A stretch of 64,000 bases of DNA from Spiroplasma tabanidicola (GTDB lineage Bacteria; Bacillota_I; Bacilli_A; Mycoplasmatales; Mycoplasmataceae). The stretch is taken from NCBI RefSeq assembly GCF_009730595.1, contig NZ_CP046276.1, positions 1,054,001 to 1,118,000 on the forward strand, read 5' to 3'. The number at the start of each line of letters is the position of its first letter. Positions within the stretch are counted from its first letter, which is position 1. The notes beneath the pieces were generated by a model. It was not told where the DNA came from. It saw nothing but the letters and a program-made list of their open reading frames with translations, and searched no databases. The translations under genes were made by a program, and so were the position numbers. This document shows, piece by piece, positions 7,792-61,594 of the stretch.

Positions 7792-9054
7792 TTATACACC
7801 AATATCTTTTCTAAAGTAAAAGTTTTCAAATTTAATTTTATTTATATTTTCATAAACTTTTTTAATAGCTTCTTTTTTTGATAAATCACTGTTATATATA
7901 AATAATATTCTTCCCCCATTGCTTTCAAAATACTTTTTTTCATCATTATATTTAGTACCCATATGAAAGATATTATTCTTGTCAAATATTTCTTGATCTG
8001 CAATTTTTACGTTATTTTTATATTCTTGAGGATATCCTTTACTTGCAATTGTAACTCCTACAAAATTTTCTTTATTTCAAACTAAATTTATTTGTTTATT
8101 ATTTAATAAATCTAAAATACTTTCAACTAAATCACTTTGTAATGCCGGCATTAAAACTTCTGTTTCAGGATCACCAAATCTACTATTAAATTCAATTACT
8201 TTAACTTCATTTGAATCAGTTAAAATTAATCCTGCATATAAAACACCTTTATAAGTAGTTCCTTCTTGTTTTAAAGCATCAATTGTTTTTTTAATAATTT
8301 CAATTTTGCTATATTCAATAATATCTTTTGTAACATAATCTACTGGTGTATAACATCCCATACCTCCAGTATTTTCGCCTTTATCATTTTCAAATATTTT
8401 TTTATAATCTTTTGCTGGTTGTAAACATTCAAAAATATCACCATTTACTAATGCTAGTAAACTAAATTCTTTTCCAACTAAAAATTCTTCAATAACAACT
8501 CCACATTTTTCATTATTAAAAATATTTTGATCTAATATTTTTTCAACTGCTTCAATTGATTCTTCTAATGAATTAGTTATAAACACACCTTTTCCACTAG
8601 CAAGTCCATCATTTTTAATAACTATTGGATATTTTTTATTAGCTTTTAAAAAATCTATTGCAACATTTTTATCACTTGTAGTAATAAAATCAGCTGTTGG
8701 GATATTATATTTTTTCATTAAGTTTTTTGCAAACATTTTTGATGATTCTATTTTAGCTGCATCTTTGGCAGGACCAAAAATTGTTAAATTATTTTTATCA
8801 AATAAATCAACAACTCCTTTTTCTAAAAACATTTCATCTCCAACAATAGTTAAATCAATATTTTTTTCAATTGCAAATTTTAAAACTTCATTCATGTCAC
8901 TATAATTAATTTCATTATTTATAGTTGCACAATCTTTTATTCCATCATTTCCAGGTATTACATATAATTCGTTACAAAGATTTGAAGATCTACACTTTCT
9001 TGCAAGCGCATGTTCTCTTCCACCTTTTCCAAGTATTAAAATATTTTTTTCCAT
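7792..9054 (-). CDS. purD: Phosphoribosylamine-glycine ligase
   Basis: GAR synthetase, second step of IMP synthesis (5-phosphoribosylamine + glycine + ATP to GAR). It has 420 residues, the normal length. The N terminus ILILGKGGREHALARK is the classic PurD start; the ATP-grasp core includes KNDGLASGKGV and the metal-binding EFNSRFGDPETEVLMP. The start codon lies 1 nt after the purH stop. One UGA-Trp codon (within the C-terminal third) must be read through. Cytoplasmic. Confidence 0.97.
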
Positions 9055-9055
9055 A

Positions 9056-10597
9056 TTAGTGTTTAAAGTGTCTGATATTTGTAAATATCATAGCTATTCC
9101 TTTTTCATTTGCTAAATCAATTGATTCTTGATCTTTTAATGAACCACCTGGTTGAATAATAGCTTTAACTTTGTATTGACTTGCAAGTTCAACAACATCA
9201 TTAAATGGTAAAAATGCATCACTTGCTAAAAATGATCCTTCTGCTTTTTTTTCTGCTTGTTCTAAAGCTATTTTTGCAGATCCAACACGATTCATTTGTC
9301 CTGGTCCTACTCCAATTGTTTGAAAGTTTTTTGTTAAAGCAATTGCATTTGATTTAACATGTTTTACAACAGTGTATGCAAATTGTGCTTCTTTTAATTC
9401 TTCTTCGCTTAATTGATTATTTGTTACACATTTTCAATTACTAATGTCATGTTTGTATAAATCTTTTTGTTGAACTAACAATCCTTGATCAATTGAAGTA
9501 TATTGATATTCATCAAGTGCTAAATCGCTCATTTTGTAATTTAATTTTAATAGTCTTAGATTTTTTTTCTTTAATAAAATATCTAATGCTTCTTTTTCAA
9601 AATCTTGTGCAATAATTATTTCTAAAAATACTTTACTTAATTCTTCTGCTACTTTTTTTGTAATAACTTGATTTGTTGCAACAATTCCTCCAAAAATAGA
9701 AACTGAATCACTATCTAAAACTTTTTCTCATAGTTGTTCAACAGTTCCATTAATTGCAACTCCACAAGGATTTAAGTGTTTTATACCAACCATACAACTG
9801 TTTTCATTTAAATCTTTTACAATATTAATTGCACTATTTGCATCTAATAAGTTATTGTATGATAATTGTTTTCCGTGCAATTGTTCTGCATTACTTAATG
9901 AAATTTCGTTATGATACTCATCAACATATCATGAAGCTTTTTGATGTGGATTTTCTCCGTATCTTAATTCTTCTTTTTTTGTAAATGACATAGTTATTTT
10001 TTTTGGCATTTCTTCTTGATTTGTTTTAGTTAACATATAATTTGCAATTAAAGAATCATAACTTGAAGTATGTGCAAAAGCTTTTTGTGCTAAAAATACT
10101 TTTAAGTCTTTATCATCTTTTTTATTTTTGATTGTATCAATTACCAATTGATAATCATTTATATCACAAATTGTAATTACATCTTTATAGTTTTTTGCAG
10201 CAGCTCTAATTAAACTAACTCCTCCAATATCAATGTTTTCAATAATATCTTCATGAGAATTATTTTTATTTTTTACTGTTTTTAAAAATGGATATAAATC
10301 AATTGCTACAAGATCTATAAAATTAATATTATGTTCTTCAACTTGTTGAACATGATTTTTATTATGTCTAATTGATAAAATTCCTCCATATAATAAAGGA
10401 TGTAATGTTTTTACTCTACCATCTAAAATTTCTGGAAACTTAGTAATATCTTCAACTTTAATAGCATCAATACCATTATCTGTTAAATATTTATAAGTTC
10501 CTCCAGTAGAAATAATTTTAAAATCATTTTCAACTAATTCTTTTGAAAATTCTAATACATTTGTTTTGTCAAAAACTGATATCAATGCATATTTCAT
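9056..10597 (-). CDS. purH: Bifunctional AICAR transformylase / IMP cyclohydrolase
   Basis: Catalyses the last two steps to IMP. It has 513 residues. The N-terminal cyclohydrolase (MGS-like) domain shows [10 protein letters not shown] and [16 protein letters not shown]. The C-terminal transformylase domain carries KHLNPCGVA and the end motif [16 protein letters not shown]. Several UGA codons encode Trp. The start lies 1 nt after the purN stop, and its ribosome-binding site AAAGGAG is inside the 3' end of purN, so translation is likely coupled. Confidence 0.97.
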
Positions 10598-10598
10598 A

Positions 10599-11174
10599 TT
10601 ATATCTTTTCTCCTTTTATAACTTTATTAATAATCTGTCAATAATATATGTGTTCTTGTTCTTGAATTCTTTTTTGTAAAGTATCATGAGTATCATCTTT
10701 ATATACTCTTACTTCTTTTTGAAATATAATTTCTCCAGCATCCATTTCAATATTTACATAATGAATTGTAAATCCTGCTAAATAAACTTTATAGTCAAGT
10801 GCATCTTGTATTGCATCTTTTCCTTTAAAACTTGGAAGCAATGAAGGATGAGTATTTATAATTTTTCTTTCATAGTGACTTAACAATGTATTTGAAATCA
10901 TTGTCATATATCCTGCTAAAATTACATAATCAATATTTTCTTCTTTTAAAACTTTTAAAATATCTTTTTCATACTCTTCTTTGCTAGGATAATCTTTTAA
11001 AAAAAAATTATAATTTTTTATATTATTTTGTTGTGCTCTTTTTATTGCAAAACAATTTTTTTTATTTGTTATCAATATTATTTTATCAACTTCTAGTTTT
11101 TTTTCATTATATGCATCTATTATTGCTTGAAAGTTACTTCCATTACCAGAAGCCATTATTGCAATATTAGTCAT
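10599..11174 (-). CDS. purN: Phosphoribosylglycinamide formyltransferase
   Basis: Formyltetrahydrofolate-dependent GAR transformylase. It has 191 residues after reading the UGA at 10638-10640 as Trp, which adds 13 residues before the TAA. The start MTNIAIMASGNGSNFQAII is typical; the catalytic Asn/His/Asp region reads NTHPSLLPSFKG and the later MDAGEII segment is intact. The start overlaps the purM 3' end by 8 nt. Confidence 0.96.
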
Positions 11175-12210
11175 GATTTAATTTTATTTTAGTTTCTTTA
11201 TTTGAAATAACACTTCCAATAATATTTGCATTGTAGTCTTTAAAATTATTTATAAAGTCTAATACTTCTTGTGCATTATTTTTATTAACAATAACAACAA
11301 ATCCTACTCCCATATTAAATACATTAAACATTTCATCATTTTTAATTTTAGCTAAATTTTGCATTACTTTAAAAATATTTAATACATTTATTTTTTTCGT
11401 ATCAATATTTGCACATAGTCCATTAGGAATAACTCTAGGAATGTTTTCAATTAATCCCCCACCAGTTATGTTTGCCATTGCAGATATTGCATAATTTTTT
11501 TCTATTAAACTTGAAATTACATCAACATAAATTTTTGTTGGTTTTAATAATTCAGTTATCAAATCACAATCTAACTCTTCAAATTTATGATCAAAACTAA
11601 AGTTATTATCTTTAAAAAATATTTTTCTTACCAAAGAATATCCGTTTGAATGAATTCCTGAAGAATTAATTGCTATTATCACATCATCTTCTTTAACGTT
11701 TTTATAATCAATTAATTGATCTTTTTCTACAGCACCTGTAATAAAACCAGCTAAGTCATAATGATTTTTAATGTACATATCTTTCATTTCAGCTGTTTCT
11801 CCACCAAGTAATGAGCAATCACTTTGCAAACATCCTTCAACAATTCCTGTAATTATATCTCTAATAGTATCTACATTTATTTTTTCAACTGCAATATAAT
11901 CTAAAAAGTATAAAGGTTTTGCACCAAGAGTTAATATATCATTAACACACATTGCAACTAAATCTATTCCAATAGTTTTATGATTGTTTGCTTCAATTGC
12001 TAGTAATAATTTAGTACCAACTCCATCAGTTCCAGAAACTAAAACTGGTTTTTGATAATTTAAACTAGAAAGATCATAAGCACATCCAAAACTTCCTATA
12101 TTATTAGAATATTTTGAATTAAATTTTTCACTTACAATTTTTTTTATTGAATCAACAATTTCATAACCTTTATTTAAATCAACTCCAGATTTTTTATAAT
12201 TATCGCTCAT
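11167..12210 (-). CDS. purM: Phosphoribosylformylglycinamidine cyclo-ligase
   Basis: AIR synthetase, 347 residues. The glycine-rich ATP-binding and PurM-type core motifs are present: VSGTDGVGTKLLLA, GGETAEM and NITGGGLIENIPRV. It starts 1 nt after the purF stop and overlaps the start of purN. Confidence 0.97.
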   Translation of the reverse strand: MSDNYKKSGVDLNKGYEIVDSIKKIVSEKFNSKYSNNIGSFGCAYDLSSLNYQKPVLVSGTDGVGTKLLLAIEANNHKTIGIDLVAMCVNDILTLGAKPLYFLDYIAVEKINVDTIRDIITGIVEGCLQSDCSLLGGETAEMKDMYIKNHYDLAGFITGAVEKDQLIDYKNVKEDDVIIAINSSGIHSNGYSLVRKIFFKDNNFSFDHKFEELDCDLITELLKPTKIYVDVISSLIEKNYAISAMANITGGGLIENIPRVIPNGLCANIDTKKINVLNIFKVMQNLAKIKNDEMFNVFNMGVGFVVIVNKNNAQEVLDFINNFKDYNANIIGSVISNKETKIKLNHD

Positions 12211-12211
12211 G

Positions 12212-13591
12212 TTATACTCCTTTATTTAAGTCGTAAATATCGACTGGATATTCTCCTGTAAAGATATCAAAACATCCTTGACCGGGTTCGAATAATGTTT
12301 TTAAATTTTCTAATGTAAGAAACTCTAAACTATCACATCCAATGTAGTTTTTCATTTCTTCAACACTCATATTTGCAGCTAATAATTCTTTGTATGTTGA
12401 AATATCTATTCCATAATAACTTGGATATTTAATTGGTGGTGATGCAATTTTTAAATGCACTTCTTTAGCACCATTATCTTTTAATAACTTAACAATATAT
12501 TTAGAAGTAGTTCCTCTTACAATCGAATCATCAATTAAAATAACTTTTTTATCTTTAACAACATCTTTTGTAACAGAAAGTTTTGTTCTAACTCCAATTT
12601 CTCTTAATTCTGGAGTTGGTTGAATAAAAGTTCTTCCTGAGTATTTATTTTTTATTAATCCAATATCAAATGGTATCTTAGAACTTCTAGCATAACCTAG
12701 CGCAGCAGAAGTTGAAGAATCAGGAACTCCAATTACAACTTCTCCTGGATAACTTTTACTTTGTTGTGCTAATAATTCTCCTGACTTAACTCTAAAATTA
12801 TGAACATTAATATTATTTATAGTACTACTTGGGTGAGCAAAATAAATATATTCCATCGAACAAACATTGTTAAAATTATTTTTTGAAAAATAATGACTTT
12901 CGATTCCATCTTTTGAAATTCTAATTATTTCTCCTGGATTAACATCTCTTATAAATTCGCTACCAGTTACATCAAATGCATAAGTTTCAGAAGATACAAC
13001 ATATCCATCATTAAACTTTCCTATTGATAAAGGTCTTAAACCATTTCTATCTCTAATTGCATACATTTCATCTTCAAATAATAATAGAAATGCAAATGCT
13101 CCATTTATAACATTTAAAGAACTTTTAATTTTTTCTAATCTTGATTTTTCTTTACTTTTTCTAATTAAGTGAGCTAAAACTTCTGAGTCACTTGTTGCTT
13201 GAAAAATACTTCCTTCAGACTCTAATTTATTTTTTATAATATGTGCATTAGTTAAATTTCCATTATGAACTAAACCAAAACTTTCATGATTTAAATTAAA
13301 GAAGAAAGGTTGAACATTACAATCAATTGATCCTCCAGTTGTTGAATACAAAACATGTCCAATTGAATTTTTTGCATTTCAATTATTAAAGTCACTCATT
13401 GTAAACTTTTTAGTTACTAAACCCATTCCTTTTTTTAATAAAAAACCGTCTTGATCATCATAACCTAAAATTCCACAACCTTCTTGACCACGATGTTGCA
13501 ATGCATGTAAACCATAATAGTTTATCAAAGTTGCATTATCAACATTAAAGCATCCAAAGACTCCACATTTTTCTTTTAAAACTTCGCTCAT
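12212..13591 (-). CDS. purF: Amidophosphoribosyltransferase
   Basis: First committed enzyme of purine synthesis (PRPP + glutamine to phosphoribosylamine), 459 residues. The class II glutaminase nucleophile is probably Cys9 in KCGVFGCF, implying removal of an 8-residue propeptide as in the Bacillus-type enzyme. The PRPP-binding motif VILIDDSIVRGTTS is intact. A UGA-Trp codon lies near residue 71. The start lies 1 nt after the purC stop. A Bacillus-type PurF would carry cysteines for an Fe-S cluster; I did not verify those ligands. Confidence 0.96.
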
Positions 13592-13592
13592 A

Positions 13593-14297
13593 TTAAATAT
13601 TTAAACTTTCTAGTTTTTCTAAAATAATTAAATAAATAGCTGTTATATCATCTAAATCTTCTCTAAAACAATCTTTATCTAATTTTCTATTGTTTTGGTC
13701 TCAAAATCTGCAAGTATCAGGACTAATTTCATCACCAAGACAAATATTATTGTCTTTATCTAAACCTAATTCAATTTTAAAGTCTACAACTTTAATATTT
13801 ATTTGTTTAAATAATTCAATTAACAATTGATTAATTTTTAAAGTAACTTTTTTTATTTCTTCTAATTGTTTTACTGTTGCTAAATTCAAAACAACACAAT
13901 GATCATCATTAATTAATGGATCTCCATATGTATCATTTTTATAACAAATTTCAAATATAGGTTTATCAAACGCAGTTCCTTGTTCAATTCCTAATCTTTT
14001 AACAATACTTCCTGCAGCAACATTTCTAATAATTATTTCTAATGGAAACATTTTTAGTTTTTTAACCAAAACATTTTGTTCATCTAAGACTTTTATTGTA
14101 TGAGTTTTAACTCCATTTTTTTCTAAGTATTTAAAAATAATATTTGAGATCTTTGCTGTTAATAATCCTTTTGATTCGTATGATGCTTTTTTTAAACTAT
14201 TAAAAGCTGTAACATCATTTTTAAAAAATATTTTTAATTCATTTTCATTTTTTGTACTATAACAAATTTTAGATTTTCCTTCGTATAACTTTTCCAT
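13593..14297 (-). CDS. purC: SAICAR synthetase
   Basis: Phosphoribosylaminoimidazole-succinocarboxamide synthase, 234 residues, standard for the short bacterial form. The start EKLYEGKSKICY and the segments EIIIRNVAAGSI and GLDKDNNICLGDEISPDTCR are characteristic. One UGA-Trp codon follows in the C-terminal part. Its ATG directly abuts the purL stop (TAAATG), and the site AAAGGAG lies within the purL end. Confidence 0.97.
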
Positions 14298-17200
14298 TTA
14301 TTTATCTCCTTTATTATTTTTTAAAAAGTAATTTATAGCGCTACTAAATATATCTTGATTTTTATCACCATAAATATTTTTACAAATGTCTGTTCCAAAT
14401 CTCTCACTGTGTCCCATTTTACCTAAGACTAATCCACATTTAGAAACTATTCCTTCAATGTTGTAATAAGATCCGTTTGGATTGTTTTCTTTATTTATAT
14501 ATTCAAAAGCAATTTGGTTATTTTCAACTAGTTCTTTATATTTTTTTTCATTTACTGCAAATCTGCCTTCTCCATGTGATACAGGAATATTATTTATTTG
14601 ATTAAATTTTAAATCCTGAGTTCATGGTGAAGTTGTGTTTACTACTTTGCAATTTACATATTTTGCAATATGTCTATTAATATCATTTTTAATTAATGAT
14701 GGATCTGACTCAGATAAGTTATGTGTCTCACTATCTATAAGAATACCTGCTTTGATTAATGCTTGAAATCCATTACATATTCCTAAAATTAATTTTTTTT
14801 GTTTTAAAAATTCACTCAAAGCATTTTTTATTTTTTTGTTTCTTATAACATTTGCAATATATTTACCACTTCCATCAGGTTCATCTCCTAGGCTAAATCC
14901 TCCTGGAATAACAAATATATGTGAATCTTTTATCTTATCTGCTAAAATATTAATCGATTCATTTAATTTTTCATTGTTTAAGTTTTTAAAAATAAACTCT
15001 TCACATTCTACATTATTTCGTTTAAAAGCTTTTTTGATATCATACTCACAATTAGTTCCTGGAAAAATAGCTAATAAAACTTTTACTTTATCAACATTAT
15101 CTGAGTAAAAATTTTTGTTTTCAACTTTTTGTTTTATCTCTATTGGTATAGGATATTCTTTCAAACTATTTGGATATATTTTTTCGATTGGTTTTAAATA
15201 GTTTTTCAAAATAATATTTCTATCTAATTCAATTCCGTTAATTTTTAAGATTTTATTAGTTTTTCCTAATGAAACTAAATTTTTATTTTTTATTTCTTCT
15301 TTACTTTCAAAAATTATTGATCCATAAATTGGTTCTAAAATATTTAAATCAGTATTAACATCAAATCCTAAACCATTTCCTAAACTCATTTTAACTAAAG
15401 CTTCTAATATTCCACCTTGTTGAATTGCAAATGCTGATAATACTTTTTTTTCTTTAATTAAACTCTCATAAAAAATATAGTTATCGTTTAATTTTTTATA
15501 ATCTGGATAGTTATTTATTAATTCATGTTTCAATAAATAAATATGATTATTTTCATTTTTAAAATCAGTTGAAACTATATCACAAGTTTTTGCAGTTGTT
15601 AATGCGAAACTGACTAATGTTGGAGGCACATTCAAACTTTCATATGTTCCACTCATACTATCTTTTCCGCCAATTGCTGGAGTATTTAGTTCTTTTTGAG
15701 CAATTAATGATCCAAGTAATGCAAGTAAAGGTTTTCCTCATTTAACATTATCTTTATTAAGTCTTTCAAAATATTCTTGAAAAGTTAATTTAATTTTTTC
15801 TTTGCTTCCTCCAGCTGCAATTATTTTTGTTACACTTTCAATTACAGCAAGCATTGAACCAATAAATATATTTTTTTCAAATAAGTAAGGATTATAACCA
15901 TAACTCATTAATGTACAAATGTTTTCATTTTCTTTAATTGGTATTTTTTGACAACTTACTTGACTTTCTGATAATTGATTTAAACCTCCATAAGGAGCTA
16001 GCACTGTTGTACTTCCAATTGAAAAGTCAAACATTTCAATCATTTCTTTTTGAGACATTATATTTAAATTACTAAAATAATTTTCTAAAAATTCTTTTTT
16101 TAATTCATTTTTGTTTTCAAAACTTAAATCTTGTAAATAATCTGTTGCAAACATTACATCAATTTGATTTGTTATTCCTCCAGAGTTAATAAAGTCTCTG
16201 TCTAAATCTACTATTTTATTTTTATTATATGTTACTTCAAATTTATTTTTATCTGTAACTTCTCCAATTTTTACTGCATATAAATTTTCTTTATTTGCTT
16301 CTTCAATAAATAATTGTACTGATTCTTTTTTAATAACCACAACCATTCTTTCTTGTGATTCTGATATTAAAATCTCTTTACCGGTTAGTCCAACATATTT
16401 TAAATGAACATCATCAAGAGTTAAACTTACACCGTTAGCAAGTTCACCAGCTCCTACTCCAATTCCTCCAGCTCCTAAATCATTTGCTTTTTTAATTAAC
16501 TTAGAAACTATTGGTTTTGAAAATAATCTTTGTAACTTTCTTTCTTCAACAGGATTTCCTTTTTGAACTTCACTATAGGAATTTTTCATTGAGTTTTTAT
16601 CTAAATTTTTTGATGAACCAGTTGCTCCACCAATTCCATCTTTGCCAGTTGCTCCACCAACTAAAACTATAATGTCACCAGCTTCAGGTTTTTGTCTAAC
16701 TAAATTTTCTAACTTAGTAACACCAACTACTGCACCGATTTCTAAACGCTTAGCTTTATAACCTTCATGATAAATTTCTTTTACTAAGGTTGTTGCCATA
16801 CCAATTTGATTTCCATAACTTGAAAATCCTTCTGCAGCAACTTTTGAAATTTTTGATTGAGGCAATTTATTAGGTAAAGTATCTTTTATGTTTTCTAAAA
16901 TATTTCCTGCACCAGTTACTCTTAATCCCTGATAAACATATGCTCTACCAGATAAAGGATCTCTTATAGCACCCCCAAGACAAGTTGATGCTCCTCCAAA
17001 TGGTTCAATTTCTGTTGGATGATTATGTGTTTCGTTTTTAAATTGTACTAAACATTTTGTATCTTTTAAATCAATAAATATTGATGCCGCATTTATTTCT
17101 TCTGATACTTCAATATCTTTACAAATATTATTTTTTATAACATGTTTAACATAACTTGTTGCAATATTCATTAAAGTCATATTTTTTTTAGTACTAATTT

Positions 17201-17957
17201 CTTTATAAAAATTTATTGCTTCATTTATTTTATTTTTATTTTCTTCACTAATATTTTTATCAAAATTTATATTATTAATTATAGTTTCAAAAGTTTTATG
17301 TCTACAATGATCACTTCAATATGTATCAATTAAAAATACTTCTGCTTCAGTTGGATTTCTTTTTAAACTTTCTTTGAAATAATTTATACAAAATTCAAAA
17401 TCTTCAAAACTCATTGCAAGACTTAATTGTTCATATAAATCTTTTATTAAGTTATTTGCTATATCGATTTCTTTAACTTCATATTGATTAGAACTATTAT
17501 TATTGTTTTGTAAATAGTCATAATCTAAATTTATTTCAAAAGCTTCGATTGGATTTATTAAATAACTTTTAATATTAACTAATTCATCTTCACCAACACT
17601 TTTATCTAACACATACAATTTAAAATGTTTTATTTTAACTTTTTTAAATAACAATAAGTTTACACATTCACTTGCGCTTTCTTCTCTTGTATTATATTGA
17701 CTATCAAATATTTTTACACAAAAATACTTTTTATTATTTAAATCAATTTCTTCTAAATACTCATCTGTATTTATTTCTGCTAAAACATTATTTACAATAA
17801 TTTCTTTTTCTTCTTTTTTTACATCAAAAATGTCATACACGTTATAAACTTTTAAGAAATCTAAACTTAAATTCAAACTTGATTGAATTTCATTTTTTAA
17901 ATTATTTGATTCAACATCAAACTCAGTTTTTTTACTTATAAATATTCTATTATTCAT
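14298..17957 (-). CDS. purL: FGAM synthase, single-chain PurL-PurQ fusion
   Basis: A 1219-residue single-polypeptide FGAM synthase: a PurS-like N-terminal region, the ATP-binding synthetase halves (FKNETHNHPTEIEPFGGAST, GGIGVGAGELANG) and a C-terminal class I glutaminase with FPGTNCEYD, the catalytic Cys in ILGICNGFQAL and a His in HGEGRFA. This replaces the separate purS, purQ and short purL of Bacillus. Three or more UGA codons read as Trp. The start overlaps the purK 3' end by 8 nt. Confidence 0.96.
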
Positions 17958-19032
17958 TTTTTTCCTCCAACTTATTTAGAGCAGATTGATAATCTTTCAA
18001 TAAATTTTTTTTATTTTTATTTATTATGTTTATATGCCCCATTTTTCTTTTATCTATAGCTTCACTTTTTTTATAATCAAACTTGATTATGTTTTGAATA
18101 TCAAACTCTTTATAAATATTTTTCCCTAATAAATTTATCATTATTGTTTTATAAATTAACTTAGGTTTAATAATTTTTTTACCAGTAACAGCTAAGATAT
18201 GATTTCTAAATTGACTTACATTACAACCATTTATTGTATAATGTCCAGTGTTATGAACTCGTGGTGCCATTTCGTTAAAAAATAATTTTTTATCTTTTAC
18301 AAAAAATTCAAAAGCAATAGTTCCTACTATATTTTCTTTTTGTAAAATATTTTTTATTAACCGTTTTGTTCTTTTATCAACAAAACTTTTTTTAGTTAAA
18401 ACTTTTGAAGTCATTAAGATTCCATCTTTATGTTCATTAATTGGAGTTGGAAAAAAATATATTTGATTAAAAATACTTCTTGTAACTATTAAACTTGTTT
18501 CAAAATCAAAATTACAAAGTTCTTCAATTATAAAATCAATATTATTAAAATCTAAAAACTCATAATCTTTTTTTTCTTTTATTAAATATTGTCCTTTTCC
18601 GTCATATCCACCAGTATTTGTTTTTAATATAAAAGGATAATTTAATTTATTATTATTAATTAGTTCACTTATTTCATCTGAATTTTTTATTTTAAAGAAA
18701 TTAACTGTTGTTAAACCATAACTAGATGCAAAGTTTTTTTCTTTAAAACGGTTTTTAGATACACTTAAAAAATTTAAACTTGGATTGATTGAATTTTTAT
18801 GCTCTTTTAAAACTTCAAAATCAATATTTTCAAATTCATATGTTATAGTTTCAGTTTTATCAAATAAATTTTTAACAGCTTCTTTATCATTGTAATTGCT
18901 ATTTAAAATTTCAACCTCAAGATCCAAACAACTATTATTTTTATTTGGTTCTAAAACAACAAACTCATTTTCCTTAGAAGATTCAATTAACATTCTTGCT
19001 AATTGTCCTCCACCAATCAATCCAACTTTCAT
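17950..19032 (-). CDS. purK: N5-CAIR synthetase (ATP-grasp)
   Basis: Converts AIR, bicarbonate and ATP to N5-CAIR, which PurE then isomerises. It has 360 residues. The start MKVGLIGGGQLARMLI is diagnostic; later ATP-grasp motifs include KTNTGGYDGKGQY and FNEMAPRVHNTGH. It starts 1 nt after purE, and its end overlaps the purL start. Confidence 0.97.
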   Translation of the reverse strand: MKVGLIGGGQLARMLIESSKENEFVVLEPNKNNSCLDLEVEILNSNYNDKEAVKNLFDKTETITYEFENIDFEVLKEHKNSINPSLNFLSVSKNRFKEKNFASSYGLTTVNFFKIKNSDEISELINNNKLNYPFILKTNTGGYDGKGQYLIKEKKDYEFLDFNNIDFIIEELCNFDFETSLIVTRSIFNQIYFFPTPINEHKDGILMTSKVLTKKSFVDKRTKRLIKNILQKENIVGTIAFEFFVKDKKLFFNEMAPRVHNTGHYTINGCNVSQFRNHILAVTGKKIIKPKLIYKTIMINLLGKNIYKEFDIQNIIKFDYKKSEAIDKRKMGHINIINKNKKNLLKDYQSALNKLEEKNE

Positions 19033-19033
19033 C

Positions 19034-19513
19034 TTAATCTACCTCTATCTCTAAAACTTCTTGAGTTTGATTATTAATGAAAGCTTCTAAATTTTTTTTA
19101 ACTTCAACATTATATAATGAAATAATTCTTGCACAAAATAAGGCCGCATTTTTTGCACCACTATCACCAATAGCCATTGTTGCAACAGGAACTCCACTAG
19201 GCATTTGAACAATTGAAAGTAACGAATCAATTCCATTTAGATTTCTAGATTTAACCGGAACTCCGATTACAGGCAAAATTGTCATGCTCGCAACCATCCC
19301 TGGTAAATGAGCACTTCCTCCTGCCGCTGCAATAATAGCATCATAATTTTCATGTGCTTTTTTTGCATAACTAAATAATAGATCTGGAGTCCTATGAGCA
19401 GAAACTACTTGTAGATCATAATCTATCCTTAGATTTTTTAAAATATCAATTGCTGGTTCAAGAGTTGTTTTATCGCTAATTGATCCCATTATTATCCCGA
19501 TTTTATTCTTCAT
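19034..19513 (-). CDS. purE: N5-CAIR mutase
   Basis: Class I PurE, 159 residues, first gene of the operon. Motifs IGIIMGSISD, SAHRTPD and AAAGGSAHLPGMVAS form the CAIR-binding site. I prefer the ATG at 19513 because GGAAAGG lies 7 nt upstream; an in-frame TTG five codons earlier overlaps that ribosome site and is a poorer start. Expression should be set by the guanine riboswitch and terminator directly upstream. Confidence 0.96.
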   Translation of the reverse strand: MKNKIGIIMGSISDKTTLEPAIDILKNLRIDYDLQVVSAHRTPDLLFSYAKKAHENYDAIIAAAGGSAHLPGMVASMTILPVIGVPVKSRNLNGIDSLLSIVQMPSGVPVATMAIGDSGAKNAALFCARIISLYNVEVKKNLEAFINNQTQEVLEIEVD

Positions 19514-19560: not shown

Positions 19561-19588
19561 ACAACAAAAAATGCAATATGTCATATGC

Positions 19589-19659
19589 TCATTTTATAGA
19601 CAATAATTTACGGTTATTTGTAGAAACGTTCGACCATATTACGAACTTATATAAAATGA
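19589..19659 (-). promoter_or_regulatory. Guanine riboswitch aptamer
   Basis: Read on the minus strand. P1 pairs TCATTTTATA with TATAAAATGA (10 bp). P2 is GTTCG/CGAAC with loop TAATATGG. J2/3 is GTTTCTAC. P3 (AATAA/TTATT) has loop CCGTAAA. J3/1 contains TCTATA with C at the specificity position (C74). Loops and J2/3 match the canonical guanine class (xpt-type) rather than the adenine (U74) or the 2'-deoxyguanosine variants known in Mesoplasma. It controls the downstream pur operon through the terminator at 19531-19560. Confidence 0.93.
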
Positions 19660-19669
19660 TTACAAATTT

Positions 19670-19675
19670 ATTATA
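19670..19675 (-). promoter_or_regulatory. Extended -10 promoter of the pur operon
   Basis: Minus strand TGCTATAAT gives an extended -10 (TG-n-TATAAT). It is positioned so that transcription would start a few bases before the riboswitch P1 helix. No good -35 hexamer is visible. Confidence 0.6.
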
Positions 19676-19817: not shown

Positions 19818-20673
19818 ATGGAAAATTTAGATCAATTATATTTTAATGGTGAAAGAGATTTATTCAAAAAGAAAGATTTAATAATAAACAAATGATTTTT
19901 TGAAAAAGGAGAGTCACCTTTAAAAGAATCAAGAAATATTGAAGTAAATGACAGTATTTTTAAATGAAAATATGTATTGTGATATGCAAAAGACATAAAA
20001 ATACAAAATTCTGTACTATACGAAACAGCAAGATCAAGTATTTGATATACAAATAATATTGTTATAAAAGACACAATCATTGAAGCACCAAAAGTTTTTA
20101 GAAGATCAACAAACATAAGTTTAAATAACGTACAAATGCCTAATGCAGCAGAAACTTTTTGAAACTGTGCTGAAATAATAATAAAAGATAGCCAAGTTAA
20201 AGGTGATTATTTTGGAATGAATTCAACAAATATTACAATCAATAATATTTCATTAACTGGTAATTATGCTTTTGATGGAGCCAAAAATATAACAATTAAA
20301 AACTCTAGACTGGTTTCAAAAGATGCATTTTGAAATTGTGAAAATGTTACAATAAAAAATTGTACTATTTTTGGAGAATATATTGGCTGAAACTCAAAGA
20401 ATGTAAAATTTAAAAACTGCACAATTGAAAGTGAACAAGGTTTTTGTTATATGGATGATGTAGTATTAAAAATTGTAATATTATAAAAACAGATTTAGCT
20501 TTTGAATATTCAACAGTAAATGCACAAATCAATACAAATATAGAGAGCATTAAGAATCCATTTCTGGCAAATATCAAAATTAATGGAGCAACAAAAATAA
20601 TTTAGATGACAAGGAAATTGATAAAACTAAAATAAATATTTTTACAAACGGAGAAAAAATCAATGTTTTATAA
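19818..20673 (+). pseudogene. DUF3737 beta-helix-like protein, frameshifted
   Basis: The first 222 codons (to a stop at 20486) match the DUF3737 family of repetitive beta-helix-like proteins: YFNGERDLF, GESPLKES, then KDAFWNCENV and GEYIGWNSKNV repeats. The family continues for about 60 more residues, and that continuation is present in other frames: one base is missing in the A run at 20468-20472 (NCNIIKTDLAFEYSTV follows) and another at the TTT at 20601-20603 (DDKEIDKTK follows). A further change near 20555 is possible. The ribosome site AAAGGAG is intact. It is either a recent pseudogene or has sequencing errors. Function of the family is unknown. Confidence 0.75.
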
Positions 20674-21831
20674 AATTGTGAATAGAAGAAATTCTAATTC
20701 TTATAAATGAGATATCAAAGAAAATGAAATACCAATGTCTTTAGCTGATATGGATTTTAAAACAGCACCTTTAATTAAAAAAGCAATAAAAAAAAGAATT
20801 AAACAAGATGCTTTTGGATATTCAACTATACCTAACTCTTTTAAAAAAGCTGTTAAAACCTGATGATTGAAATATTTAACTGAGATTTTGATGAAAATGA
20901 TGTTTTATTTTGCACTGGAGTTGTTCCTGCTATTTCTTCTATTGTTAGAAAATTACTAAAAGATAATGAAAATGTAGTAATGCTAACTCCAATTTATAAT
21001 ATTTTTTTAACTCAGTATACAACAATAATAAAGTAGCCTTAACAAGTGATTTAATTTATAAAAATGATGAATACTCAATTGATTTCAATGATTTAGAACA
21101 AAAACTAGCTAATAGCAAGGCTAAATTACTTATATTATGTAATCCGCATAATCCAATTGGTAAAGTATGAGATAAAGAAACATTAGAAAAAATTGGAGAA
21201 TTATGTTTAAAACATAACGTAACAATATTAAGTGATGAAATACATTGCGATATAACTTATAAAAAAAATAAATATATTCCAATGGCATCAGTTAGTGATA
21301 AAATTGCAAACATAATAATAACGTGTGTTTCAATGTCTAAAGCTTTTAATTTAACAGGATTGCAATCTTCAGCGATCATAATTAAAAATGAAGAAATTAA
21401 AAAAAGTAGAAAGAGCAATAAACACAGATGAAGTAGCAGAACCAAATATTTTAGCTATACAAGCTTTTGAAGCTGCAACAAAATCAAAAGCGTGACTAGA
21501 TAAGCTCTTAAATTATTTAAGCATAAATAAACATTTAATAATAAAACAACTTAATTTACATATACCTGAAATTAAAATTATAAAATCAAATGCTACCTAT
21601 TTAATTTGATTAGATTGTAAAAATATATGCGATGATTCATCAGTATTATGTAATTATATAAAAGAAAAAACTGGTTTAATTTTAACTCCTGGAGAAGTTT
21701 TTAAAGGCAATGGAAAACAATTTATTAGATGAAATTTTGCTTGCTCTAAAAAACTTTTAAAAATGGCTATTAAAAAATTTATTTCTGCAATTAAAGATTT
21801 TAAAAGTTATAATTTAAAAAAGGAAAAATAA
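20663..21831 (+). pseudogene. PatB/MalY-type C-S beta-lyase (aminotransferase I/II fold), frameshifted
   Basis: A PLP-dependent cystathionine beta-lyase/aminotransferase homologue of about 388 residues if repaired. Family features: PMSLADMDF near the N terminus, FCTGVVPAIS, CNPHNPIGKVW, ILSDEIHCDI, SMSKAFNLTGLQ (PLP lysine) and FACS near the end. Three frame breaks, all in homopolymers: a T lost at 20875-20877, a T lost at 21002-21008, and one extra A (or two lost) at 21399-21405. The ATG overlaps the DUF3737 gene end and has GGAG upstream. If truly broken, the cell lacks this lyase; if the breaks are artefacts it is a normal gene. Confidence 0.8.
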
Positions 21832-53199: not shown

Positions 53200-55266
53200 C
53201 TATCACATTTTTTCATATCTTTTTACAAAAATAAATATTGTTCCAAAATCAAGTAAAACTGATATTACTAACCAAGGAATATATAATGCATAATAATTCA
53301 ATAGTTCACCTTTTTTATCTTCATTAAAATATCCATCACTATAAATATCTATATTATAATCATTATTAATTTTAAACTCACTCCCCATAAATTCAGTACT
53401 ATAGTTTTTAGAATATAAGATTAAATCATCTGAAGTAGGTTCACTATAACTACGTCTATCATTGTTTAAATATGTTAAATACTGTGTCATATAAACACTT
53501 TCAATATTAATTTTTCCATTAATATATTTAACACTGTCACTATAAATTTCATTTATAGGAACAAAGATCTCTTTTGAATTATCCGTAGATGATGTTAAAT
53601 GATAAACTATTGTTCAGTTTTTTAAAAAAAATGAATTTAAAGGTTCATAACTCATAACTAAGGAATCTGCTAGATAAATAGTTTTAGTTAAGTTTTCTTT
53701 TAAAAAACATTCATAATGTCTTTTTTTAAGGGCAAAAAAATCAGAAGAGAATTTATAGTTGTTATTAATATTTTTATAATAACTATAATGGTAATCAACA
53801 CTAGTTCTATATTTATCAAGCTTACTTGGTTCATTAACAAGTCTCTTATAATAAAGATCACTTAATGGACCAAATGGTTGATTTGCAATTATGTCAGCAT
53901 AAACAGAGTCTTTAAAACCATAAGCCATTTTTGACATTTGGTTAAAATAATTAAATCTAACAGAGTCATAAAAAGATTCATTTAAGTTAGTTTGTTCAAT
54001 ATATAATTCATAAATATATGAATTAATATTATTATCTTTTTTTAAATCATAAAACTCATTAACTATATTTGAGTAGAAATCAATTAATAAAGCGATTTCA
54101 GGATGTGCTTTTATAAAATTATATTTGCCATTATTTTCATCAAAATAATAACTTGGATTTTTAAAATTAGAATACAAAAATGAACCATTGCTAAGTGTTA
54201 ATTTTTCATATTCAAATCTTTTTTTATAATTATTTAAAAAATTTAAATAACTTTTATTATTTGTTTTATTATAAAAATTTTCTAAAATTTCATTCATTAT
54301 AGGTACTTCTTGTCAATTATTATCATATAAGTTATTCATATCTAATAAGCTTTTATAAGACATTTTAAATAAATCATTGTTCATACTTAAAATTTCATAT
54401 TGCTCAAGAATAAACTTCATAAAAATATTGTCTTCATTTCTATCAATAAAACTATCATAAAAGTTAGTAGCATTTAACAAATAAACTTGTTGTGAATAGT
54501 ATGAATTTTCTAAATTATTTTCAATATAGCTCATCAAACCTAATTTATGTCAATCTTTTATAAAATTTGATGTATTTTCTCCCATAAAATTTTTAATAGA
54601 ATTATAGTTATCGATAGTTAGTTCAATTTTTCTATAAGCTTTATTTGATTTAACTAGCCCAATCCCATTAATATCATCACTTTTAAAAAAGTAATTACAA
54701 ATCAAAGAAATTGAAAAAATTAAACCTACTACAAACATTATAGTTGCAACAAACGCTTGTTGACTTATAAAAGAAAGGCAAAACTGATAAACAAAATCTA
54801 AAAAAAAGGAAAAAAACAGTAAATATAATCAATAAAATAATCTCTGATTAATTAAGTAACTTTGATAAACTTGGTCATACTTAATCATAATAGTATTTAC
54901 TATAAAAACTTGTATAAAAATTAAACCTAGTATAATTATTTTTTGAGTAATAAAACGTGACAATCAAATAGTTTTTTTATTTATACCACTTACTATTTCC
55001 ATGTTAGTTTTACCACCATACAAAGCATTATAAAATAAGCTTGTATTAATAAGCAAAGTAAAAATTACTATAAAAAATAAATTAATTATAAAAAAATAAA
55101 AACCTATTTGTAATTGTTTTATTTTGATTTCTTGATCTTCATTTTTGCCAATAAATAATAATAGCGAGTAAGACACAATATTAACCAAAGTTAATAAACC
55201 ATATAATATGTATATTGATTTTAATTTAAAGATTTGTTTTATGTTACATTTTAATAATACTTTCAT
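53200..55266 (-). CDS. Large ABC-associated membrane protein, paralogue 1
   Basis: 688 residues. About six N-terminal membrane spans within residues 1-200 (SIYILYGLLTLVNIVSYSLL, FYFFIINLFFIVIFTLLI, IMFVVGLIFSISLICNYFF), then a roughly 430-residue Asn/Tyr-rich soluble region, then a last span (WLVISVLLDFGTIFIFV) and RYEKM. The large loop between the last two spans would be extracellular. Closely related to paralogue 2 (56921-58984), starting with the same MKVLLKCNIKQIFKLKSIYI. Family not recognised. Several UGA-Trp codons. Confidence 0.8.
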
Positions 55267-56920: not shown

Positions 56921-58984
56921 TTAACTCATTTTTTCATATCTTTTTACAAAAACGTACATAGTTCCAAAATCTAATAAAATTGAAAAAAATAATCATGGAA
57001 TATACAGGGAATAATAATTTAATAATTGTCCTTTTTTAGAATAGTCAAAATATTCATCACTATAAATTTCAATATTATAATCGTCATTTAATTTATATTT
57101 ATCTCCCATAAAATTAGTAATTTTATTTCGAGAATATAAGATTATGTCATTTTCGCTCGGTTTATCATATTCAAGTTGTTCATTACTATATTCACTTTTT
57201 TTTCTATAGTTAGTTATGTAAACATTTTTAATAATTAATTTTCCATATATATACTCAACACTATTTTCATAAACTTTATCAATTGGAACAAATATTTCTT
57301 TTGTACTATCTTCTAATAATGAAAGTTCAAAAACAATCATTCAGTTTTTTAACATAAAAGAATTAAGCTTTTCGTATTTCAAAATTAAAGATTCACACAA
57401 TAAAATAATTTTATCTAAGTTATCTCTCCTAAAACATTCAAAATATTCATCTTTATATTCAAAAAAATTATAATTAAACTGAAAGTTATTTTCTTTTTTT
57501 GTTTCTTCACTTTCAAAAAATTTATTAATATTTCTATATCTATCTATTTTTTCAGAATCATTAACAAGTCTTTTATAGTAATAATCACTTAAAGGCCCAA
57601 AGGGTTCATTTGCAATTAAATATTCATAAAGATAGTCTTTGTAACCATATGCCATTTTTGATAATTGATTAAAAAGATTTCATCTTATGCGATTATAAAA
57701 TGAGCTTTCCAAATTATTTTTTGCAATATATAAATCATAAATGTAAGAATTGTAATTTTCTTTATTTTTTAGATCATAAAACTCATCCAGTATATTTGAA
57801 TATAAATCTATTAATAAAGCTATTTCAGGATGTTTTTTTATGTATTCATATTTATTATTTTGCAAAATATAAGTAGGACTTTTAAAATAGCTATATAAAT
57901 ATGATTGGTTACCTTCAGTGAATTTTGGAAAACTATATCTTGCTATATAGTTATTTAAAATATTTAAATAACTAGAATTATTTGTCACTAAATAAAAATT
58001 TTCCAAAATTTTTTTTATGATGGGCACTTCCTCAGAATGTGCATAAGTAGCACTATTTAATTTCAGTAATGAATTAAAATTCATATTAAATAGCTTAGGA
58101 TTATCTTCTAAAATTTTATATTGATCATCAATAAAACTTATAAAGATGTTTTGTTTATTCACTCTAATAAAGTCATCATAAAAAGCAGATGCCTTTATAA
58201 TATTGATTTCATTTGAAAAATTATCAATCATTTTGTTTTCCACATAGAATTGTAAATTTAACTTATGCCAATCTTTAACTAAATTTGCAGTCTTATTTTC
58301 TGAAAGATTTATAAAAGCATTATAATTTTCCATTATTAAATTATTTTTTATATAAGCTTTATTTGATTTAATAAGTCCAAAGTTATTTATGTTATCTTGT
58401 TTAAAAAAATAATTACATATTAAAGATACTGTGAAAAATAATCCCACAACAAACATAATGGCAGCTACAAAAGCTTGTTGTTTTATAAAACCAATACAAA
58501 TATGATATATAAAATCTAAAAAAAATAAAAAGAAAATTAAAAATAATCAATAAAATAATCTTTGATTTATCAAATACCCTTGCAAAGCTTTATCATACAT
58601 AAGCATAATTAAATTTACAATTGTAATTTGGATTATAATTAGGTTTAATAAAATTATTTTTTGAGTAATAAAACGAGATAGTCAAATTGTTTTTTTATTC
58701 AAACCATTTATAATCTCCATATTTATTTTACCGCTGTATATAGAACTATAAAATAAATTGGTATTTATAAGCAAAGTAAAAATTACAATAAAAAATAAAT
58801 TAATTATAAAAAAATAAAAACCTACTTGTAAAGAACTTAATTTATTTTCTATTTTATCATTTTTACCAACAAATATAAGTAAAGAATAAGAAACAATGTT
58901 AATTAATGTTAATAAACTATATACAATATAAATTGACTTTAATTTAAAAATTTGTTTTATGTTACATTTTAATAATACTTTCAT
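56921..58984 (-). CDS. Large ABC-associated membrane protein, paralogue 2
   Basis: 687 residues, same architecture as paralogue 1: N-terminal membrane block to about residue 200, long polar region (EVPIIKKILENFYLVTNNSS, GPLSDYYYKRLVND), final span (WLFFSILLDFGTMYVFV) and RYEKMS. Closely similar over the membrane parts, more diverged in the loop, consistent with gene duplication. No own ATPase gene. UGA-Trp throughout. Confidence 0.8.
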
Positions 58985-59122: not shown

Positions 59123-60760
59123 TTAATTTTTAGCCTCAGTAATTTTATTCTTGTAACTATTTTTTATATCTTTGTATTTTTGATTATATTCAAGTTTGTT
59201 TAAACTTTTATTTTCGTATTTTAATTTAAGGGATTTAATTTCTTCACTTCTCGAATCTTTTAAAATATTAATATTATTTATTTTTAACTGTTTAAGGCCT
59301 GCTTTTTTACTTAATATATCAGTTTCTGGATGTATCATCCCTTCGCTTAAAGCAACAATTGTACTTACAACCATTGCTGCAAGAATATTTACAGCAGTTC
59401 TTCCTATATCAAAAATATCTTCTAAAACTAACATGATTGACATTGTAGCTTCTCTAAAACTTGGCACACCTAAAGAGCTAGTTAAACTTGTTATAACTAA
59501 TGTTGAAGTTCCAGGAGTTCCTGGTATTCCAAATGAAATTATTATCGTCATTATTAAACCTAAAATTAAAAATAATCATATACCTTGGTCGTGAATAATA
59601 GGAGAATCAGATCCAGTTCACATTAATGACATAATCAAGCCGCCTTCTGCACCTGCTCCTCCAATCATGCCCATAGTTGTTGATAAAGGAATTATTGTTG
59701 ATACACAAGTTTCATCAACTTTCATTTCATCTACTAAAGATTTCATAGTATAAGGTAATGTTGCACTTGAAGACTGAGTAACTAAACCTTGATAAGTAGG
59801 TCTTCATCCTTTTTGTCACCATTTATGTGGTTTTATTTTAGCAATTGCTAATGCAGCTGTTAAATAAATTACACAAATAAATAAACTTACATATGCTGCT
59901 CCTAAAACTTTTGCAACTGCTGTTAAAGCTGTTAAAGATTGAGTTATCATTAAGTTTGTAACAATTGACATAATTGCTAAAGGAATTATTTTAATAAAAC
60001 TATTTACAATTTTTAATACAATATCTCAACTAGCATCCATTAATTTTACAAATGCTTCAACTTTTTTTGGATTTTTTAAAGATATCGCTTTTACACTTAG
60101 CCCTACTACTAACGACATAATAATTACTGGAATTACAGCATCACTTGCAAGACTTGCAAAAAAGTTTTTAGGTAAATAATTTATTATCATGTCAGGAATA
60201 GATGTTAATTTAGTATCTTCATCTCCTGAACTTCCGTTTGAAAATTTATCTAAAACTTTTTCTCCTTCACTTGTGACTCCAACTTTAAATAATATTCCAA
60301 TTCCAGCTGCAATACAAAATGCAACAGCAACGTTAATTACTAAAAACACAATACCTTTTGCAGTAATTCTTCCTAATCTTTTTGAACTTTTTTTGGTAAC
60401 TGCACGATAAATTGATAAGAATATTAAAGGTATCATCAATAAAGTAATTGACAATATAAATACTTTTTTAAATAATACAGATCAGCTATCTAGTTCTTTA
60501 ATTCATTGATATTCTGCTAATTGATTTCCTTCTTTATCTGTAAATGACTCAGGAAAACCTACAACAGCTTGTATTATGACACCATAAACTAATCCTAAAA
60601 CCAATCCTGAAAACAAATGTAAAAACTTATTTTTAAATTTCTTTAGAAAAAATCATAATAATATTTGCAGTGTAAAAAAAACTAAAATTGCAATTAATGA
60701 TTTATAACTACTTATTGAGATAAAATCTTTTAATTTATCTCAAGTACTTGCATATAACAT
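59123..60760 (-). CDS. SDF-family sodium:amino-acid symporter, possibly L-cystine (TcyP-like)
   Basis: 545 residues. N-terminal half resembles TcyP (SWSVLFKKVFILSITLLMIP, then TSIPDMIINYLPKNFF). The substrate-binding serine-rich turn reads TQSSSATLP, and the C-terminal core has PGTPGTSTLV and VLEDIFDIGRTAVN. The last 65 residues are a charged coiled coil (NKSLNKLEYNQKYKDIKN near 520) absent from typical members. Ribosome site AAAGGGAAAT. Preceded by a Cys-Cys leader peptide and an attenuator-like hairpin; substrate is inferred. Confidence 0.82.
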
Positions 60761-60783
60761 ATTTCCCTTTCTAACCAAATAAA

Positions 60784-60839
60784 AAAAGAGCATCAAATAA
60801 AATAGGTGTATTTAACTATTTTTTATTCAATACTCTTTT
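60784..60839 (-). terminator. Attenuator hairpin upstream of the symporter
   Basis: On the minus strand, a 5' arm beginning AAAAGAGTATTGAATAAA pairs with CTATTTTATTTGATGCTCTTTT (only Watson-Crick and G-U pairs, one two-base bulge), followed by seven T, 24 nt before the symporter ATG. It lies between the leader peptide and the gene. Confidence 0.8.
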
Positions 60840-60872
60840 ATATTATTAGTATAAATTTTATTTTTTTAAATT

Positions 60873-60944
60873 TTAATAAAGACAACATAAAAGAGTAGAT
60901 CTGTTATTATCATCATTATTATTTGTTAATATAAATTTACTCAT
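60873..60944 (-). CDS. Leader peptide with tandem Cys codons
   Basis: A 23-codon frame, MSKFILTNNNDDNNRST followed by LLCCLY and a stop, with the strongest ribosome site in the neighbourhood (GGAGG, 9 nt before the ATG) and an extended -10 (TGTGATAAT) just upstream. It is followed by a terminator and the symporter. Two adjacent UGU codons lie close to the stop. The codons for TLLC (ACTCTTTTAT) are exactly complementary to the 5' arm of the terminator. Typical of ribosome-mediated attenuation leaders; the role is inference. Confidence 0.6.
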   Translation of the reverse strand: MSKFILTNNNDDNNRSTLLCCLY

Positions 60945-61036
60945 AATACTTTGCCTCCATATTTTTATATTATCACAAGATATATAAAAATACATTCAAT
61001 TAAAGTAAAATTAAAAATATTTAAAGGAATTTTATA

Positions 61037-61594
61037 ATGAAAAGATGTAATTGAGCAAACATAAACGAATTAATGAAAAATTATCATGACAATGAATGAG
61101 CAAAACCTATTTATGAAGATAAAATATTTTTTGAGTTCTTAATTTTAGAATCAATGCAAGCAGGTTTAAGCTGAGATATAGTTTTAAAAAAGAGAGAGAA
61201 CTTTAGAGTGGCTTTTGATAATTTTGATTATCAAAAAATCGCAAGTTATGGCAAAAATAAAATTGATGAATTAATGAAAAACAAAGGCATTATTAGAAAT
61301 CAGCTAAAAATAAAAGCAGCAATTAATAATGCAAAACAATTTATTGAAATAATTAAACAGTATAATAGTTTTAGTAAATATATATGAAGTTTTGTGAATA
61401 ATAAACCTATTATAAATGAATTAAAAAGTGATAAAGATATCTTATCTAGTAGCTTATTATCTGACAAAATTTCAAATGAGTTAAAAAAATGTGGTTTCAA
61501 ATTTGTTGGAACCACAATAATTTATTCTTTTTTACAAGCCACCGGAATTATAAATGATCATATAAATGATTGTTTTGTTAAAAATAAGTATTAG
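61037..61594 (+). CDS. tag: DNA-3-methyladenine glycosylase I
   Basis: 185 residues (187 in E. coli). Start RCNWANINELMKNYHDNEWA carries zinc-site Cys4 and His17; GLSWDIVLKKRENFR is the lesion-binding region; zinc ligands His and Cys near the end are in NDHINDCF. Removes 3-methyladenine from DNA. UGA-Trp codons several. AAAGGA 9 nt upstream. Its stop abuts the convergent SDR stop. Confidence 0.94.

Follow-up and report, generated by a model that had tools for sequence, protein, structure and literature searches.

In the trp, his and thr attenuators of enterobacteria, a short leader open reading frame (ORF) carries a run of regulatory codons within segment 1 of the leader RNA, the RNA segments form mutually exclusive 1:2, 2:3 and 3:4 structures, and segment 2 is masked when the ribosome reaches the stop codon (summarised in PMC9413887). 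Ribosome-mediated attenuation has also been demonstrated experimentally for Rli60 (PMC5864092), and leaders with 3-5 regulatory His codons have been predicted in Firmicutes (PMC9413887). As far as the authors of a 2010 survey knew, demonstrations of leader peptide systems had been confined to Proteobacteria and Actinobacteria until they described His leaders in bacilli (PMC2965389). Here we describe a leader upstream of an SDF-family symporter gene that, at odds of about three in four on comparative and computed evidence, is a ribosome-mediated transcription attenuator of the trp/his type that raises symporter transcription when charged Asn- or Asp-tRNA is in short supply.

The locus resides in a 64-kb stretch of DNA (G000:C1:1054001-1118000; hereafter the window) of a 1.28-Mb genome comprising a single contig. 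Genes in the window are open solely when TGA is read as Trp, which identifies the organism as a Mollicute; its genetic code, genome size and gene content suggest that it is Spiroplasma-like. A first-pass annotation of this DNA had reported a 23-codon frame with a GGAGG site, a terminator following this frame, and a 10-nucleotide segment of the frame that is complementary to the terminator 5' arm. All three features were recovered (Table 1). The terminator is a hairpin of 22 pairs (-16.5 kcal/mol) with CTCTTTTTTT at its end, and the frame segment ACTCTTTTAT is exactly complementary to ATAAAAGAGT in the terminator 5' arm. The longest Watson-Crick match between the ORF and the arm region is 11 nucleotides, a length reached in 5 of 3000 trials when the ORF was dinucleotide-shuffled, and the corresponding matches in four orthologues span 9-14 nucleotides (reached by 0-82 of 3000 shuffles). 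Among the 47 window genes scanned, the symporter gene is the only one preceded by both a terminator and a leader ORF with a Shine-Dalgarno (SD) sequence. On sequence grounds, TGATAATAT is a probable extended -10 promoter element, and its TG-N-TA(A/T)TAT pattern is similar to the Mollicutes promoter reported in Mesoplasma florum (PMC7745072). Rfam covariance models gave no match in positions 60700-61060 at E values up to 1, and a T-box or known riboswitch was rejected on the absence of a match at this permissive threshold.

Table 1. Features of the leader and the putative regulated gene (window positions).
Feature	Position	Strand	Remarks
Probable extended -10 promoter element TGATAATAT	60967..60975	-	TG-N-TA(A/T)TAT immediately 5' of the leader SD in 5/5 species
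Leader Shine-Dalgarno GGAGG	60954..60958	-	Nine bases 5' of the ORF start; also part of segment 1, predicted to pair with segment 2 TGTCTTT
Leader peptide ORF MSKFILTNNNDDNNRSTLLCCLY plus stop, 23 codons	60873..60944	-	ORF call and peptide profile
Regulatory codon run AAT AAT AAT GAT GAT AAT AAC (N8-N14)	60903..60923	-	Proposed stall site; also predicted to pair with segment 2
Segment 2 core ACTCTTTTAT, antiterminator 5' arm	60887..60896	-	CTCTTTTAT invariant in five species
Segment 3 ATAAAAGAGT, antiterminator 3' arm and terminator 5' arm	60832..60841	-	Invariant in five species; folds
Intrinsic terminator hairpin and U-tract (segments 3:4)	60781..60839	-	z -6.2; three double-sided pair changes
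SDF-family (PF00375) symporter gene, putative regulated gene	59123..60760	-	PF00375 E 1.4e-74

Elsewhere in the window, a purine riboswitch (RF00167, 60.8 bits; 19577-19674, minus strand) is located 5' of a purine biosynthesis cluster (~7792-19513), and the retention of this pathway is unusual for a Mollicute. At 20663-21831 (plus strand), a PLP-enzyme-like reading is split across several frames and has the look of a decayed gene; its start appears MalY/PatB-like from our reading of the translation, without HMM support. Two adjacent paralogous membrane proteins of 687-688 amino acids are encoded at 53200-55266 and 56921-58984 (minus strand), and the second of these has no Pfam match.

Among 99 related genomes searched at the protein level, four carry close symporter orthologues (G006, G012, G014 and G016; 73-74% identity), and the remaining full-length matches, with identities of 40% or less, were treated as paralogues. 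The leader is present in all four genomes that carry an orthologue (MKSKSLLNNNDDNNRAALLFCLS, MSKFNHLNNDNNNRFTLLLCL, MSKLFLLSNNDDNNRLALLCCLY and MSRFKLINTNNDDNNRFTLLCCLY). When a profile of the leader peptide was run against 60 family genomes, it matched the same five that encode the symporter (E 1.4e-14 to 9.9e-11), and the next best match (E 0.019) falls in a degenerate stretch. Leader and orthologous symporter occur together in 5 of these 60 genomes and are both missing from the other 55. The unit is found in at least three distinct gene neighbourhoods, wherein two species have upstream genes in common, two have a downstream PTS-like gene in common, and one has neither (neighbour names reflect our own reading of the translations). 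Those SDF paralogues whose upstream regions were inspected carry no such leader.

Other candidate leaders were examined and rejected. Two loci with partial DNA matches (G000:698980 and 820996) are not second leader copies, three repeated matches in G015 were discarded, and an N/D-rich start in G016 belongs to the N-terminal region of a longer ORF. The weak peptide match at G000:722520 was also rejected. This degenerate stretch (G000:C1:722520-722555; L104 ~620-660, minus strand) reads HPFFDGNNRTALLTC, which is Fic/Doc-motif-like, and is probably a decayed gene that matches the leader profile by chance. Scans of a contig collection, which may omit near relatives, yielded no leader. As a separate observation, G015 carries a gene of ~100 codons in three tandem, near-identical copies (L036 1300-2560).

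Alignment of the five leader peptides reveals a conserved core, NND(D/N)NNR..LL.CL, with invariant columns M1, N9, N10, D11, N13, N14, R15, L18, L19, C21 and L22. Codons 2-7 drift while NND(D/N)NNR is kept, and the differences within the N/D run are restricted to five third-position changes of the synonymous type (GAT/GAC, AAT/AAC) and one D-to-N replacement. An N/D run of six or more among 22 random residues of the same composition has a probability of ~1.4e-4, and no N/D run of five occurs in the 13,097 residues of window proteins. Asn and Asp are the residues most likely to be sensed by this leader.

The same run places two adjacent Asp residues inside the first 15 positions, and acidic pairs early in a protein cause E. 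coli ribosomes to pause (PMC11282234). A leader of the MgtL type, in which an acidic stretch destabilises the ribosome and the signal is Mg2+ or overall translation stress instead of an amino acid, might be built in this way. We nevertheless hold this to be a very remote prospect, because Asp occurs only once in one species (NNDNNN), the flanking Asn residues are conserved, proline is absent, and the regulated gene does not encode an ion pump. Conservation beyond the N/D run, at R15, L18, L19, C21 and L22, could also be expected of a nascent peptide that stalls the ribosome on a small molecule in the style of TnaC or the erm leaders. However, the invariant residues that follow R15 coincide with nucleotides that the pairing of segment 2 holds fixed, and the peptide is merely 21-24 amino acids long with a variable C-terminus (LY, LS or L), which makes peptide-based arrest very unlikely. 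Specifically, CTCTTTTAT is identical in all five species and is followed by two variable bases and then TGTCTT. At transporter columns where all five species have Leu, none of 45 uses CTT throughout. The CTT codons of the leader are fixed and those of the transporter are not, which indicates an RNA-level constraint on the leader.

Three competing structures are predicted in each of the five species. In the protector (1:2), segment 2 is paired with the SD region or with the Asn/Asp codon run; in the antiterminator (2:3), RCTCTTTTAT is paired with ATAAAAGAGT; and segments 3 and 4 form the terminator. Compared with dinucleotide shuffles, z values across the five species range from -2.3 to -3.9 for 1:2, from -2.8 to -6.7 for 2:3, and from -4.9 to -6.2 for 3:4. 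The parts of this unit, their conservation, the mutual exclusivity of their pairings and their geometry can be read from the sequences themselves, and the recurrence of all three structures in five species strongly supports a leader-peptide transcription attenuator. The upper stem of the terminator varies in sequence among species while its pairing is kept, with three pairs changed on both sides in a comparison that covers five species only and includes few compensatory changes. The 1:2 structure formed with the codon run has a 19-pair consensus in which 92.6% of cells are paired and no pair is changed on both sides, and thus its support derives from stability and conservation, not covariation. 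The antiterminator and segment 2 are invariant and so can give no covariation signal.

Because the complement of the U-rich segment 2 is A-rich, conservation of the codon run should be read with caution, and some of it may reflect selection at the RNA level, as these codons also pair with segment 2. Taken further, the pairing of the codon run with segment 2 would fit an attenuator that operates by RNA alone, or a constitutive leaky terminator, with the ORF arising as a by-product of A-rich sequence. Such an arrangement is very unlikely given that the SD, the start codon and the frame are kept in all five species at lengths of 21-24 residues, that the changes within the N/D run are of the synonymous type, and that the distance from the stop codon to segment 2 is fixed (12 nucleotides, or 9 in one species). 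In addition, A3 columns 58 and 70, which are unpaired third positions facing U, hold T or C (Asn) in 10 of 10 cells. An A at either column would improve pairing and specify Lys, yet it is never used, which speaks against a purely RNA constraint.

To follow the consequences of leader translation, a 30-nucleotide ribosome footprint was set at each codon and the free RNA was folded. With only downstream RNA free and segment 4 not yet made, the antiterminator probability is 0.96-1.00 on the N/D codons through the penultimate one in all five species. This value falls to 0.54-0.70 with the A site at the last N/D codon, to 0.37 or less at Arg, and to 0.00 at any Cys codon or the stop codon in every species. 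Whether the downstream edge is set at +9, +12 or +15, the last codon that leaves segment 2 fully free is N or D in each of the five species, and moving the edge from +9 to +15 shifts the border by two codons, always inside the N/D run. When upstream RNA was also permitted to pair, the border was unchanged and the antiterminator was lower at certain N/D positions in L005, L006 and L008, falling under 0.05 for some codons in two of these three affected species. With no ribosome, before segment 4 is made, the antiterminator probability is 0.01 or less in three species and 0.57 and 0.96 in the other two. For the complete transcript at equilibrium, the terminator is favoured in most states. This equilibrium result implies that the choice between structures is kinetic and made during transcription, as in known attenuators.

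The results of the ribosome walk bear directly on the function originally proposed for this leader, in which stalling on a pair of UGU codons would make it a cysteine-sensing attenuator of a cystine symporter. Our results support the attenuator and not the sensing of cysteine. Consistent with the proposal, LLCCLY is present in three of five species, one Cys is invariant, TcyP is the nearest E. coli relative tested, and leader peptides with Cys runs have been proposed in Actinobacteria (PMC1262725). However, the pair itself varies (LLCC, LLFC or LLLC), such that the second Cys is C, F or L among orthologues while the frame and the hairpin are kept. Variable Cys codons alongside a kept hairpin are the outcome that the first-pass annotation had named as counting against its cysteine version. 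The invariant Cys codon is better explained at the RNA level, since the invariant TGTCTTT pairs with the SD region and the Asn/Asp run. Moreover, the Cys codons lie directly 3' of the segment 2 core, where a ribosome covers segment 2 and the terminator forms in all five species. Low Cys would thereby turn the gene off, the opposite of what would be expected for an importer. The first-pass annotation had itself pointed out this difficulty and suggested additional structure or a different logic, and the Asn/Asp run just 5' of segment 2 supplies one that resolves the sign: a stall there yields readthrough and a stall at Cys yields termination, and only the former fits an importer. On these grounds, sensing of cysteine is highly unlikely.

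We infer both the stalling and the sign of regulation in the following model for an Asn/Asp-responsive leader. Transcription would begin just upstream of the leader, whose ribosome-binding site would be used immediately. When charging of Asn- or Asp-tRNA is low, the first ribosome would pause at codons 8-14 (NNNDDNN) and hold the codon run that otherwise pairs with segment 2. Segment 2, left free, would pair with segment 3 as it emerges, and the symporter gene would be transcribed because no terminator forms. When Asn and Asp are ample, the ribosome would pass through LLCCLY to the stop codon 12 nucleotides past segment 2 and mask this segment, such that segments 3 and 4 pair and transcription is terminated. 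Without translation of the leader, segment 1 (the SD region plus the Asn/Asp run) would pair with segment 2, and the terminator would again prevail. The leader ORF contains no TGA codons and is therefore open to direct assay in E. coli.

The SDF family includes both Asp/Glu and cystine symporters. The protein encoded downstream of the leader belongs to this family, and its nearest solved structures by sequence are the aspartate transporters GltTk and GltPh. The resemblance to TcyP noted previously holds in that TcyP is the nearest of three E. coli SDF proteins (phmmer, 90 bits versus 48 for GltP), although the identity is only 22%. Transmembrane segment 8 (TM8) retains D-I-G-R-T-x-x-N, whereas the NMDGT motif is absent, with TMGMIGG in its place, and the TM8 Na+-site Asp of GltPh is also lost. 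The TM8 Arg cannot be used to assign a substrate because it is common to TcyP, GltP and this symporter. We infer that the symporter imports Asp, Asn or a related amino acid, with the caveat that sequence favours TcyP over GltP; the Asn/Asp leader is a hint at substrate class that is independent of protein similarity. Asparagine synthetase AsnA (PF03590) scores above the cut-off in 20 of 20 genus genomes, and Asn_synthase (PF00733) gives weak matches by short fragments. AsnA would make Asn from Asp, which would explain the sensing of both amino acids and would tie Asp import to Asn supply. The genome that contains the window also encodes an SDF paralogue that is 38% identical to the symporter. 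In most genus genomes, the 36-40% identical paralogue (L009-L025) is preceded by a gene that we read as flavin disulfide-reductase-like, possibly reflecting a cystine or redox link.

Few regulators are known in Mollicutes. Coupling of transcription and translation has been physically demonstrated in Mycoplasma pneumoniae (reviewed in PMC8116511, PMC7858274), where expressomes are bridged by NusA, while in Bacillus subtilis the two processes are functionally uncoupled (reviewed in PMC8116511). If our model is correct, coupling in Spiroplasma-like bacteria would be tight enough for gene regulation, and a conserved ribosome-dependent switch would be a genetic indication that coupling is functional in this lineage. 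Our search of the open-access literature found no paper joining leader peptides, transcription attenuation and Spiroplasma, which is weak evidence of absence, and nothing relevant on leaders with Asn/Asp codons. We lean towards the view that no amino-acid-responsive leader-peptide attenuator had been described in Mollicutes before this one, which has a mixed Asn/Asp run that would read the joint Asp and Asn state of a cell possessing AsnA.

The proposed control is of the trp-operon type, and its unusual features are the lineage and the Asn/Asp codons. Like the trp, his and thr attenuators, the leader has an ORF with a codon run in segment 1, mutually exclusive structures, and a stop codon positioned to mask segment 2; it differs from them in its Asn/Asp codons, in preceding a transporter gene, in using the SD as part of segment 1, and in its occurrence in a code-4 bacterium. 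Rli60 of Listeria monocytogenes (ilv-leu; PMC5864092) offers a Gram-positive-type example of ribosome-mediated attenuation with a leader peptide and an alternate terminator. Its likeness is one of mechanism, but Rli60 uses branched-chain codons ahead of a biosynthetic operon. The His attenuators of Erysipelotrichales and other Firmicutes (PMC9413887) similarly have a predicted leader peptide before an attenuator, but with His codons and his operons. Finally, the Cys-run leaders of Actinobacteria (PMC1262725) share a short ORF with Cys near the stop codon; these have Cys runs and no conserved terminator, whereas in the leader described here the terminator is conserved and the Cys pair is not.
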